Assembly (NCBI RefSeq): GCF_964204645.1
Contig: NC_134025.1
Span: 30,658,001-30,722,000 of the forward strand
Direction: 5' to 3'
Length of the DNA stretch: 64,000 bases
Source of the DNA: Tubulanus polymorphus
Lineage: Eukaryota; Nemertea; Palaeonemertea; Tubulaniformes; Tubulanidae
Shown here: piece after piece, positions 8,215 through 46,315 of the stretch
Position numbering within the stretch: the stretch's first letter is position 1
Layout of the letters: each line of letters starts with the position of its first letter
The notes under the pieces: model-generated
Databases searched by the model: none
Seen by the model: only the letters and a program-made list of their open reading frames with translations
Told to the model about the DNA's origin: nothing
Position numbers and translations under genes: made by a program

Positions 8215-11200
8215 CTCATTCTCTCACCCTAGTCCCTCTCTCTCTCCTCTCTCTCTCTCTCTCTCCTCATTCTCTCACCCTAGTCCCTCTCTCTCTCCTC
8301 TCTCTATCTCCTCATTCTCTCACCCTAGTCCCTCGCTCTCGTCTTCTTTCCCTCACCCTCCCTCTCTCATTCTCTGATGTCACCAGGTTTTGATTGCATC
8401 AGGGAAAATAGCTACAAGTGATGATGTAAAAAATGTATCAATTATTTCTCGACAGGCTCTGATGTCATTTCATAGTACACGCACACACAAGTGTGTAAGG
8501 ACTGGTGTAGGTAGGGCGTAATGCTGACTGGTGTCTGTAGGGGGTAATGCTGACTGGTGTCTGTAGGGGGTAATACTGACTGGTGTCTGTAGGGGGTAAT
8601 ACTGACTGGTGTCTGTAGGGCGTAATACTGACTGGTGTCTGTAGGGGGTAATACTGGCTGGTGTCTGTAGGGGGTAATACTGACTGGTGTCTGTAGGGCG
8701 TAATACTGACTGGTGTCTGTAGGGGGTAATACTGGCTGGTGTCTGTAGGGGGTAATACTGGCTGGTGTCTGTAGGGGGTAATACTGACTGGTGTCTGTAG
8801 GGGGTAATACTGACTGGTGTCTGTAGGGGGTAATACTGACTGGTGTCTGTAGGGGGTAATACTGACTGGTGTCTGTAGGGGGTAATACTGACTGGTGTCT
8901 GTAGGGGGTAATGCTGGCTGGTGTCTGTAGAGGGTAATGCTGGCTGGTGTCTGTAGGGGGTAATGCTGGCTGGTGTCTGTAGGGGGTAATACTGACTGGT
9001 GTCTGTAGGGGGTAATACTGACTGGTGTCTGTAGGGCGTAATACTGACTGGTGTCTGTAGGGGGTAATACTGACTGGTGTCTGTAGGGGGTAATACTGAC
9101 TGGTGTCTGTAGGGGGTAATACTGACTGGTGTCTGTAGGGGGTAATACTGACTGGTGTCTGTAGGGGGTAATGCTGGCTGGTGTCTGTAGGGGGTAATGC
9201 TGGCTGGTGTCTGTAGGGGGTAATGCTGGCTGGTGTCTGTAGGGGGTAATGCTGACTGGTGTCTGTAGGGGGTAATGCTGACTGGTGTCTGTAGGGGGTA
9301 ATGCTGACTGGTGTCTGTAGGGGGTAATACTGACTGGTGTCTGTAGGGGGTAATACTGACTGGTGTCTGAAGGGGGTAATACTGACTGGTGTCTGTAGGG
9401 CGTAATACTGACTGGTGTCTGTAGGGCGTAATACTGACTGGTGTCTGTAGGGCGTAATACTGACTGGTGTCTGTAGGGGGTAATACTGACTGGTGTCTGT
9501 AGGGGGTAATACTGACTGGTGTCTGTAGGGGGTAATACTGACTGGTGTCTGTAGGGGGTAATGCTGGCTGGTGTCTGTAGAGGGTAATGCTGGCTGGTGT
9601 CTGTAGGGGGTAATGCTGACTGGTGTCTGTAGGGGGTAATGCTGGCTGGTGTCTGTAGAGGGTAATGCTGACTGGTGTCTGTAGGGGGTAATGCTGACTG
9701 GTGTCTGTAGGGGGTAATGCTGACTGGTGTCTGTAGGGGGTAATACTGACTGGTGTCTGTAGGGGGTAATACTGACTGGTGTCTGTAGGGGGTAATACTG
9801 ACTGGTGTCTGTAGGGGGTAATACTGACTGGTGTCTGTAGGGGGTAATACTGACTGGTGTCTGTAGGGGGTAATACTGACTGGTGTCTGTAGGGGGTAAT
9901 ACTGACTGGTGTCTGTAGGGGGTAATACTGACTGGTGTCTGTAGGGCGTAATACTGACTGGTGTCTGTAGGGGGTAATACTGACTGGTGTCTGTAGGGGG
10001 TAATACTGACTGGTGTCTGTAGGGGGTAATACTGACTGGTGTCTGTAGGGGGTAATACTGACTGGTGTCTGTAGAGGGTAATACTGACTGGTGTCTGTAG
10101 GGGGTAATACTGACTGGTGTCTGTAGGGGGTAATACTGACTGGTATCTGTAGGGGGTAATACTGACTGGTGTCTGTAGGGGGTAATACTGACTGGTGTCT
10201 GTAGGGGGTAATACTGACTGGTGTCTGTAGGGGGTAATGCTGACTATAATTCAATAGAAGAGCGTCAGTACAAAATGCAACAAGCATTTCCCATGGATCA
10301 GTTGTACGATACCGATTCTGAGCACATAGCTGATTAATCCAACAAATCTGAACCAATGGGCCTTGATAGGTAAACGCGCTGTAAAGAGATCTTCCAAGAC
10401 TCCTCTATTCAAAGCACTATCAGATAGTTATCACTGGGGAAAGAGGACTCAGATCATATCATGTATCGAATCACTATTGATATTACTGTCATAACAAAAC
10501 CAACAACAAGAAATCAATGCAGTTTTCATTTATTTCCTCCGCGAGTAGTTCGGTAATAAATCTAAATTTGTCTTACATCCCTGTTCTACCAATTCTCAAG
10601 ACCTTGTAGGAAAAATTACGAAAAGTTTACCTCGTAATCATAAAACCTTTAACAAATCCGTAATAAGATATCAACATTTTCATTCAGATCTAAGTATAAT
10701 TCTGGGCCCGGTTTTATTAACTGGTATTATCTTTAACCCGGGGGTTAACTTAATTGAAAATGAATTGAGTTAGCCCTTGGGTTAAAGTAAATACCAGTCC
10801 ATAAAACCAGACCCTGAAATAATGTCGATTAATTTTGTCGATCTGCCTACGTTAAGAGTACTGAAGGCGCAATGACCAATCCCTTTTACAGGTATCAGAA
10901 ACACTGGTGTTTTTATATCTCTCAAGATGAGAGAGGCATAAAACTTTACTTACGGGTCACTGGTTGACAGGATCAACAAAATAAGGCAGAGTGGGTGTCG
11001 AATAGATTGGGTTTGTGTAATTGCTCCGTCGGTTGGACATTCATGAGACAAGCTGTCTGTAATTCGAGATCGCATCTACCAGAACTTTCACAAAAAGTCA
11101 AGGCACGTCATTTTTTCCAGCCCCGCGCGAGTGATTTAAAATCTCCTGTATCTAATACATTTTCTCAGGGGATTTTGATGCTCATAATACCGGTATACAA

Positions 11201-23373: not shown

Positions 23374-42992
<19,619 letters not shown>

Positions 42993-44550
42993 TTTAATTA
43001 TAGATCATGTGAATTTTGAGAACCCGGAAGTAAATTCGACGGCTCACGGAAATTTCCCATCCAGGAAATGCTGGTTGATAGTGAACTCTAATTCACGGTC
43101 AGCAGTAGTGATTCCAGTCAACAACCGCAATAAAGTCCGGCGCGATGAACAGCGGTGAGTGGGAATTTTTCCTATCGTATTTCAGCCAATCGTTGAATGT
43201 GGCTTGTGTTAATCATGGTTAATGGTACCAGCCTTCGTTCTGTTTGAAACTGCAGGTCGGACTCGCCAAGACTTAAAACGCAGATTATCATTTCATAATG
43301 TAAATCGTTGTTTTTTCACTATGAAGATGGATGGCAGGATTCTGTAAACAGTTGTTTGTAGGTTTTTCTTAGTACCGGGATGCCAGTTGCTACTGTGGCG
43401 AGTCTCTCTGGCAGCTAGTTGTTACAATATCGGTCACATGTAATCTAATCAAATAAGATTTGCACAACAAGATGAATTTGACGACCTGTTCAAAACGGCT
43501 GACTCGAAAATACCGCCCCGGTTATTGAAATATTATTTCCTATGAATGAGTTTCAGTTTGTCTTTACAAAATTTTGACCATTTTATATCAGCTTTTTGAA
43601 AAAGATTTGTGAGCACGCCATCTTCAAATCGTATCAAATCACCGTGTTAAATTCAAAAATTCGACCAAATCAAAATTGAAAACCTTTTCTCCTGCCATGA
43701 TTGGATGAATTGGTCTTTTAGTCTTCTATCTTAGAAATAGTGGTTCATTTTATATTTCCTCTGTGTGAAATAATGTGCTTAGCCTGAACGTTAGTCAGGA
43801 TTTTAAAAGGTTGTATGTGCCAAAATTTGTTGACATAGTTTTTAGACTTAACTTTTAGACGCAATAAAATAATTGATATGCATAATATTCTCGTTTTTGG
43901 ATTTCAGTGATGTTTTAAAAATCATGACTTGGCCAAAAAGTGTGTGCTGCGCCTACAGTTCTGTACATACTGGCCATGCTTTTTAACATTTGTTTGGAAA
44001 CCAATTTCTTCGTTCTGAAATCATTTAAATGTATCTTGGCTGACCAGTGCGTTGCGCTCTTAAAAATTGTACCAGAAATTGTAGAGCAGATGTATAACAT
44101 GAACAGCTCGAGTTCACATTGGACCATAACATTAGGCGGTGTTCCGCATTCGAACGAGTATTTACAGAACTGTAGATGTACTCTTCCCTTAGCTTTGATA
44201 ATTATTTCAAAGGCTCATATAAGGGAAGTTGTATAACGTGACGGATTTGACCGACTAATTCGATTTCACCTAGAGTTCTGACTTAAGAGCTTTCATTGCT
44301 CTGTACGATGATCATACCTTGTTATTTAAAAACAGTAACTTCATCTTAAAGGAGACTTTAGTATTCACATAAGGGAGTTATAGCCAGGAATAACTTGGTC
44401 TTAACAAAATTAATGATATCATTGTTGATTATTTACTGATAGTATAATCATTAAATGTTTCTAAAGCTAGAAGAAAAAATGTCAGGACACGTATTTCAAG
44501 TGAAGTGATAATGTCTGAAAGTCTTAATTAAGATGATGCAAGTAGGCAAA
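42993..44550. other. Intergenic region: IGF2R promoter side
   Basis: Contains the 5' flank of IGF2R (minus strand). I see no TATA box close upstream of 42992. A 98-codon plus-strand frame at 43940-44236 has no family signature and no splice context. Nothing else was recognised. Confidence 0.45.
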
Positions 44551-44861
44551 TAGTTTTATTCTTATGACAACTATTATACGCTAAATGACAGTATTATACT
44601 CAAGGAATTTATCATGTAAGTTCCTCATAAACATATAATAATTTCATTTTCATTGACATTATTTTTACTAGAAAACTATATTTAAAACTATAATATGAAA
44701 CTTATCTTCATCCGTCGACTCTAACCTGCAATATAGTTTTCTAGTAAAAATAATGTTAATGAAAATGAAATTATTATATGTTTATGAGGAACTTACATGA
44801 TAAATTCCTTGAGTATAATACTGTCATTTAGCGTATAATAGTTGTGATAAGAATAAAACTA
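44551..44861. repeat. Large palindrome: 132-bp inverted repeats with captured GPCR sequence
   Basis: The left arm 44551-44682 and right arm 44730-44861 are reverse complements with no gaps and only two mismatches over 132 bp. The 47-bp loop (44683-44729) contains GAAACTTATCTTCATCCGTC plus GACTCTAA (44697-44724), identical over 28 bp to coding positions 45201-45228 of GPCR copy 2, in the same orientation. It lies 330 bp before that gene. There is no coding capacity and no clear target duplication. Confidence 0.92.
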
Positions 44862-44985
44862 CACTGTTCATCATTCATGTTGTATCACTTCAAACTTTTA
44901 GTTTAGTTTGGTTTAGTTTAGTTTATAGCAACTTTTTCATGAAGTTGCGTATACCTGTGCATACCTGTGCATCACCAATTAGTGG

Positions 44986-44992
44986 TATAAAA
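44986..44992 (+). promoter_or_regulatory. TATA box of GPCR copy 2
   Basis: TATAAAA in GTGGTATAAAATAGCTTTAA, about 200 bp before the start codon, in the same sequence context as before copy 1. The downstream leader GCTAATTAGGGTTTGGTCGA and the following CACCAGACACA are identical in both genes. Confidence 0.6.
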
Positions 44993-45193
44993 TAGCTTTA
45001 ATTTCATAGTATGTTTCTGCTGATAGAAATCTAAACTCAGATTTAGAAATATTTGTGACATGTAATGTATCGAATTCAACGTAAAACTGGTATTGATATC
45101 GCTGCAGCCGCTAATTAGGGTTTGGTCGACACCAGACACAAATCTATTTCTCTCTCGCGTAGAGTAGATCGGACCGCGGCATCATCCGCTCCT

Positions 45194-46315
45194 ATGGACG
45201 GAAACTTATCTTCATCCGTCGACTCTAAAACGGGAGTTAGAGTCTATTCTCCAGCTGAGCCAGTCGTCGATGGCACAATTTATTATCGTGATAATTGTGG
45301 GGTTAGATCATTCGAAGGAACTTACGAGATATATCTAAGGCTTTATGGAGGCTTCTCCATCATAATACTCGGCATTCCGTTAAACATTTTGATTATCGTT
45401 GCATTACGAGCTCAGAGTTCAACTCACATTTCGTTTTATCTTTTACGTTGGTTGGCGTTTTGGGACATCATGTTTTTGATCTGGCGCGGGATACAGGGAC
45501 CTGTGCGTTATCTACTAGCGTGGCTAATACAAGGAGAGTTTATATTTGAAATACGGTGGCATTCTTATTTCATGCCATGGCTTTATGTCCTGGCACATTT
45601 ACCACGATATACATCTCAAATGACCCGGAACTGGATAACTGTCGCTGTCGTCGTACAACGAACTTTATCAATTTTATTTCCATTTTTCACTAAACGAACT
45701 ATTACAAGATTTAGAATCAAAGTCATGAACGTTTTTGTTTCCATAATTTCTGCGGCAATGTATAGCCCTTATTTTGCTACCGTTAAAATTGTTTATTTTT
45801 GGGATGTCTGCACAAACCGTTATCACAGGAAAATCATTGAAAAAGAAGCAAAGCATTTAAAATATATTTTTTCGTTAATGTTTGCCGTTTACGGACCAAT
45901 CTTTAAGGAATATCTACCGAGTGTATCATTGATTCTTTTCAATATTGTTTTGATAGTAAAACTGCGACAAATTCAGAATAAGCGCAAAGAAGATTTCACC
46001 TCACACGGAGGTGAGGATAAAAATAGAAATATTGATGTTAAAGCTACTAAAATGGCGATATCAGTTGTTTTGATTTTTCTGGTTTTTGAAGGACCTAGTT
46101 CACTCTCAACGATATCTCGTTACATTCGATCTCGCTTCAAGAATCTTCCTGATTTACCACGTGAATGGCATATATATGTCGACCCAGCTGTCGGAACTCT
46201 TTTTCCAATGTTGAATTCTTCATCTAACTTTTTCTTGTACTGTATTGTAAATAGTACGTTTAGAAAAACAGCTCTGAAACTTTTACGAGACCGATGTAGG
46301 CGAAAAGCGACGTGA
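45194..46315 (+). CDS. Intronless rhodopsin-class GPCR, copy 2 (373 aa)
   Basis: A close paralogue of the nested receptor: the same N-terminal YYRDNCGVRSF, helix 1 IIILGIPLNILIIVAL, helix 2 FYLLRWLAFWDIMFLIW, helix 3 end WITVAVVVQRTLSILFPF, the identical third-loop phrase FTSHGGEDKNR and helix 7 NSSSNFFLYCIVNSTFRK. Differences cluster in the extracellular loops and helix 4. Both copies are open over full length, so both seem functional. The ATG at 45194 (CTCCTATGG) matches the start of copy 1. It is transcribed away from IGF2R. An AATAAA begins four bases after the stop. Confidence 0.86.
   Translation: MDGNLSSSVDSKTGVRVYSPAEPVVDGTIYYRDNCGVRSFEGTYEIYLRLYGGFSIIILGIPLNILIIVALRAQSSTHISFYLLRWLAFWDIMFLIWRGIQGPVRYLLAWLIQGEFIFEIRWHSYFMPWLYVLAHLPRYTSQMTRNWITVAVVVQRTLSILFPFFTKRTITRFRIKVMNVFVSIISAAMYSPYFATVKIVYFWDVCTNRYHRKIIEKEAKHLKYIFSLMFAVYGPIFKEYLPSVSLILFNIVLIVKLRQIQNKRKEDFTSHGGEDKNRNIDVKATKMAISVVLIFLVFEGPSSLSTISRYIRSRFKNLPDLPREWHIYVDPAVGTLFPMLNSSSNFFLYCIVNSTFRKTALKLLRDRCRRKAT

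Follow-up and report, generated by a model that had tools for sequence, protein, structure and literature searches.

A single compound repair event very probably hit one copy of a dispersed repeat lying upstream of an Srw-type GPCR gene in the window, by which we mean the whole 64,000-nucleotide stretch of Tubulanus polymorphus DNA analysed here. Comparison with other copies of the repeat shows 179 bp inserted there, composed of an inverted 132-bp copy of the adjacent repeat sequence and a short loop in which 28 bp of the neighbouring receptor gene are embedded. The donor, the resident template, the likely order of steps and the site as it was before the event can all be read in one assembly. 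The features concerned are as follows.

43691 (approximately) to 44940, minus strand (the reading of the resident arm): resident repeat fragment, interrupted by the 179-bp insertion
44551 to 44729, no strand assigned: inserted stretch of 179 bp, left arm plus loop; elsewhere 44550 is joined to 44730
44551 to 44682, no strand assigned: left arm (132 bp), apparently copied in inverted form from the resident right arm (130/132 bp)
44683 to 44696, no strand assigned: 14-bp linker holding AAAACTATA (44684-44692), which is complementary to 44732-44740 of the resident arm
44697 to 44724, plus strand: GPCR-identical 28-mer, an exact match to 45201-45228
44725 to 44729, no strand assigned: 5 bp, CCTGC, separating the 28-mer from the resident arm
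44730 to 44861, minus strand: right arm, resident repeat sequence and putative template for the left arm
45194 to 46315, plus strand: Srw-type GPCR open reading frame (PF10324, E 1.6e-17), with the same ATG in most aligned relatives
45201 to 45228, plus strand: part of codons 3-12 in the Srw-type GPCR gene, donor of the copied 28 bp

A single palindrome within a dispersed repeat

The first-pass annotation had described two 132-bp arms with two mismatches around a 47-bp loop, and an inverted-repeat scan and alignment recovered the structure as described: the two 132-nt arms are 98% complementary, the loop between them is 47 nt long, and the two mismatches fall at 44566/44846 and 44655/44757. 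Among ungapped inverted repeats whose arms reach 45 nt and lie no more than 2000 apart, sought within the 64-kb window, it was the sole one reported by the repeat finder. Its predicted RNA fold reaches -191 kcal/mol compared to a shuffle mean of -44.7, with 0 of 100 shuffles equally low, a value that restates the palindrome in other terms.

The arms match a dispersed repeat, with at least 118 matches on both strands, the window included; most places count twice in this number because the query is a palindrome, and the number is a lower bound since 40 of the 77 candidates were scored. The left flank (44408-44550) and the right flank (44865-44939) match the same repeat family, and both fall in one continuous repeat copy on C12 (locus L029). 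The arms look like an arbitrary slice out of a longer repeat. This repeat is apparently noncoding; the longest listed open reading frames in L029, L030 and L032 amount to 133, 93 and 131 aa, judged by length only and with introns left aside. On C12, the host repeat also forms local clusters with internal duplications, at L009 (C12:3247084-3248900) and L029, which suggests that it is a complex repeat.

The insertion site is uninterrupted in other repeat copies

The sequence 44408-44550 was joined to 44730-44773, leaving out the presumed insertion, and aligned with 33 loci (L009-L039, L045 and L046), whereby an alignment with at least 15 bases on either side of the joint was taken as spanning. 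The joint 44550|44730 was spanned by 20 alignments from 18 loci, corresponding to 19 distinct places (L018 and L029 are one place, and L009 has three spanning places); many of these copies are related and hence not independent. In L029, the closest spanning copy, the counterparts of 44550 and 44730 are neighbouring bases, with zero bases lost or gained at the joint. Matches that did not span the joint occurred in six loci, or five places (L032/L021, L046, L025, L038 and L028); L032 and L021 are one place, in which the match stops 8 bases beyond the joint. L016 and L027 gave secondary partial matches besides. No match to the joined sequence was obtained in nine loci, namely the GPCR loci L033, L035, L036 and L039 as well as L019, L022, L030, L034 and L037.

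As the joint is uninterrupted in other copies and shows neither loss nor gain of a base relative to L029, the stretch 44551-44729 represents one 179-bp insertion. The spanning copies are paralogous and 13-25% diverged from the window; they are neither an allele nor the locus of a sister species. Of the origins proposed in the first-pass annotation, the one by break repair, in which a templated insertion is combined with an inverted duplication, is supported by the empty-site comparison. The converse arrangement, in which the left arm would be resident, was rejected; it gave one spanning alignment (L038), which consisted of AT-rich matching around AAAACTA. The window's own junction was crossed by two alignments (L015 and L010), each with a weak AT-rich end of ~20 bases.

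The arms also bear on the polarity and age of the event. Both lack the same ~105-125 bp that are present in many family copies, which indicates that the left arm was copied from the window's own repeat copy. G stands at 44566/44846 in the left arm and likewise in 18 of 18 aligned family rows (a further row is gapped, and the 18 include related copies, so that they do not count independently); on that strand, the right arm has C. Since the left arm keeps the family base, it is the right arm that has changed since the event. The family is divided at 44655/44757, with 7 G and 8 A as counted from the alignment, two gapped and two non-homologous rows being set aside; G, the base of the left arm, also occurs in the closest spanning copy. 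This second site says little about polarity. Two differences in 132 bp, against a divergence of 13-25% between the window and the spanning copies, suggest a recent event. The near-identity of the arms had been ascribed either to recent origin or to gene conversion; the former is consistent with the two differences, and the latter is not needed.

The loop holds an exact copy of a receptor gene segment

The identity of loop positions 44697-44724 with codons 3-12 of the GPCR gene, pointed out in the first-pass annotation, is exact: 28 of 28 bp match the donor at 45201-45228, 504 bp away. Counted from the ATG at 45194, which is 333 bp beyond the end of the palindrome, the 28-mer extends from the second base of codon 3 to the second base of codon 12. 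It had been considered that the match might prove to be a common repeat. Across the 267.8-Mb genome, however, the 28-mer has these two sites only at up to three mismatches, and a reversed-pattern control of the 28-mer found zero sites in the same genome at the same tolerance. Six related GPCR copies were aligned, including the window copy at 33682-34994, and all six differ within the 28-bp stretch; they have much of the upstream region in common and mostly the start codon too. Given that the 28-mer is unique in the genome and that the six relatives differ, the donor is the adjacent GPCR gene itself. Most simply, the sequence would have been copied from the gene into the loop.

The two GPCR copies of the window (33682-34994 and 44976-46308) are 78% identical over 1.3 kb and lie in the same orientation, and similarity to the upstream region of the relatives starts at 44957. 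Further copies are located on C1 (L033 and L036). On C11, the interval 7353916-7364915 contains five matches to the GPCR upstream region at a regular spacing of ~2.7 kb, with the upstream part alone compared. The Srw-type set looks like an expanding receptor family. Elsewhere in the window, a 26-bp tandem repeat at 8500-10245 (67 copies, 97% matches) probably accounts for the high G+C content and the strand skew at 8-10 kb, and 42111-42229 comprises ~40 near-perfect TGC triplets (98% matches) that can be read in open frames as poly-Ser, poly-Ala or poly-Leu. In five contig-end stretches of the genome, inspection by eye of their outermost 120 bases, at the start and at the end, disclosed none of the known telomere repeats.

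The 28 bp are bordered by short stretches on both sides. For CCTGC, there was no match of at least 8 bp covering all five bases within 3 kb; GACTCTAAC (45236, other strand) covers its first base and TGCAATAT (46655) its last three, and both are short enough for chance. Nothing convincing was found within 3 kb as a source of either the 5-bp or the 14-bp linker. The 9-mer AAAACTATA in the 14-bp linker is a possible fold-back primer, judging by its complementarity to the resident arm. The donor exon contains a short inverted repeat at 45221-45244, with GACTCTAA at 45221 and TTAGAGTC at 45237, the first half of which coincides with the last bases of the copied 28 bp. This repeat may have halted the copying polymerase.

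A model for the repair event

From the arrangement of these parts, we infer a mechanism of local template switching, that is, a fold-back templated insertion. Read on the minus strand, the arm end ...ACTAGAAAACTATATT is followed by GCAGG, the 28 nt, ATATTATAGTTTTA and the inverted copy AATATAGTTTTCTAGT... In the proposed sequence of steps, a break would open at 44550|44730 of the repeat copy, and the right-hand fragment would be extended at its 3' end (minus strand, ...CTATATT), first by 5 nt. The same 3' end would then copy 28 nt from the GPCR exon, ~470-500 bp off on the same fragment or its sister, and subsequently gain 14 nt, nine of which form a stretch complementary to the end of its own arm. 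Thereupon the strand would fold back and copy 132 nt of itself, and finally the displaced end would be attached to the left-hand fragment, using hardly any homology or none. With the loop already in place, the inverted copy would be able to extend up to the last resident base.

Two joints bear on the details. The linker sequence TATAGTTTT complements AAAACTATA, which lies close to the end of the arm, and priming through this 9-mer predicts that CTAG should come at once; a second TATAGTTTT sits between instead. The fold-back priming step via the 9-mer is therefore not clean. At the far joint, from GGCAAA to TAGTTTTATTC, there is no exact microhomology. A 7-bp motif, TAGTTTT, is common to both arm ends 4 bp off the joint; among 1956 other positions, 58 (3%) are equal or better.

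Alternative explanations

It is possible, as a tentative variant, that the templates were switched at a stalled fork and not at a break with two ends. This variant is contained in the compound-event model, so that the likelihoods of the two overlap. Short-range replication switches create perfect inverted repeats (PMC7954356, PMC8794818, in the text available from these reports), and the products of fork and break are hard to distinguish by sequence. A fork would, however, require three switches plus a direct copy from 0.5 kb off, and the left joint is devoid of exact microhomology, as in end joining.

The palindrome might also have arisen in two events, an inverted duplication with a small spacer whose centre was later broken and refilled with a piece of the GPCR gene. 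Palindrome centres are fragile, and the 28 bp in the loop have unexplained bases on both sides. Nevertheless, we regard it as unlikely: compared with L029, the resident repeat is complete at the joint, and the inverted copy extends to the last resident base. A hairpin would need a loop to copy that far, and the 47 nt would supply one if they came first.

There is little chance that the structure is an assembly or amplification artefact in the form of a chimeric inverted read. Inverted chimeras near their template are a known product of amplification, but here two sites distinguish the arms, and in one of the two cases it is the resident arm, not the copy, that bears the changed base, as expected of time since the event.

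Least probable of all is a fold-back transposable element that captured GPCR sequence in its loop, the second origin put forward in the first-pass annotation. Fold-back elements and MITEs have long inverted arms around a loop, as is the case here, and the arms match many places in the genome; moreover, L022 holds an imperfect palindrome at 58-250 (83%, ~193 bp) near a family match, although the window arm has no match in it. The genome search for the arms, suggested earlier as a way to recognise such an element, did yield many copies, but not paired arms with other loops: the arm matches had a single orientation at 20 of 20 other loci tested, a set that covers part of the weaker matches. Furthermore, the arms are an internal slice that ends within a longer repeat, and the flanks continue that repeat. 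Terminal inverted repeats with a target duplication (TA at both ends) were considered and rejected, as the TA lies within the arms and the flanks continue the same repeat copy. A target-site duplication was not found in the sequences outside the arms, GGCAAA and CACTG.

Possible consequences of the hairpin

The likeliest function of the palindrome is none. A transcript of the palindrome would fold into a near-perfect 132-bp stem, which had led to the speculation that it might silence the GPCR gene. This finds no support: the GPCR match would sit in the single-stranded loop, so that a Dicer-type product would come from the arms and match the repeat family, not the GPCR. There is a slim chance that a 132-bp hairpin gained in one step in the GPCR 5' region acts, if transcribed, as a source of small RNAs against the repeat family or alters expression of the GPCR gene; in that case, the locus would be a newborn hairpin locus whose mechanism of birth is still legible. 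What the locus does illustrate is that gene-adjacent repeats can gain long hairpins and scraps of exon in one step; no function is shown by it.

Comparison with known systems

The closest likeness is to fold-back insertions in yeast, where, in the available text of the report (PMC11724301), inversions range from 2 to ~150 bp, most being shorter than 14 bp. Both cases comprise an inverted local duplication with a loop of similar size, 41 nt there and 47 nt here. The yeast insertions are primed by short inverted microhomology, for which the candidate here is the 9-mer, and their far joints have 0-5 bp of homology with a median of 2 (PMC11724301). Unlike the yeast cases described there, this would be a natural, inherited event in another eukaryote, and its loop contains an additional 28-bp direct copy of an exon (PMC11724301).

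As in the template switches reported for great apes and RNA genes, one mutation would have created a near-perfect inverted repeat from local sequence (PMC7954356, PMC8794818, as far as the available text goes). In the great-ape data given there, the copied fragment has a median of 12 and a maximum of 128, compared to 132 here (PMC7954356). The four-point model as presented in these sources involves one switched fragment, whereas two templates are seen at this locus (PMC7954356, PMC8794818).

Polymerase-theta end joining also produces inserts copied from near the break, and the identity of the loop to nearby sequence resembles them (PMC4490562, available part). Theta's own inserts are typically up to ~30 nt, a limit that the 28 bp fit and the 132 bp do not (PMC11724301, available part). 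For this reason, a hybrid of the kind proposed for yeast in the same text (PMC11724301), in which a replicative polymerase is combined with end joining, would suit the 132 bp better than theta.

Taken together, the palindrome belongs to a known kind of mutation and stands out by its size, by the use of a second template and by its readability. The 132-bp inverted copy is at or above the top of the published ranges compared, and lies near the upper end of short inverted templated insertions as far as the available text of those reports gives it (great apes 128, yeast ~150).
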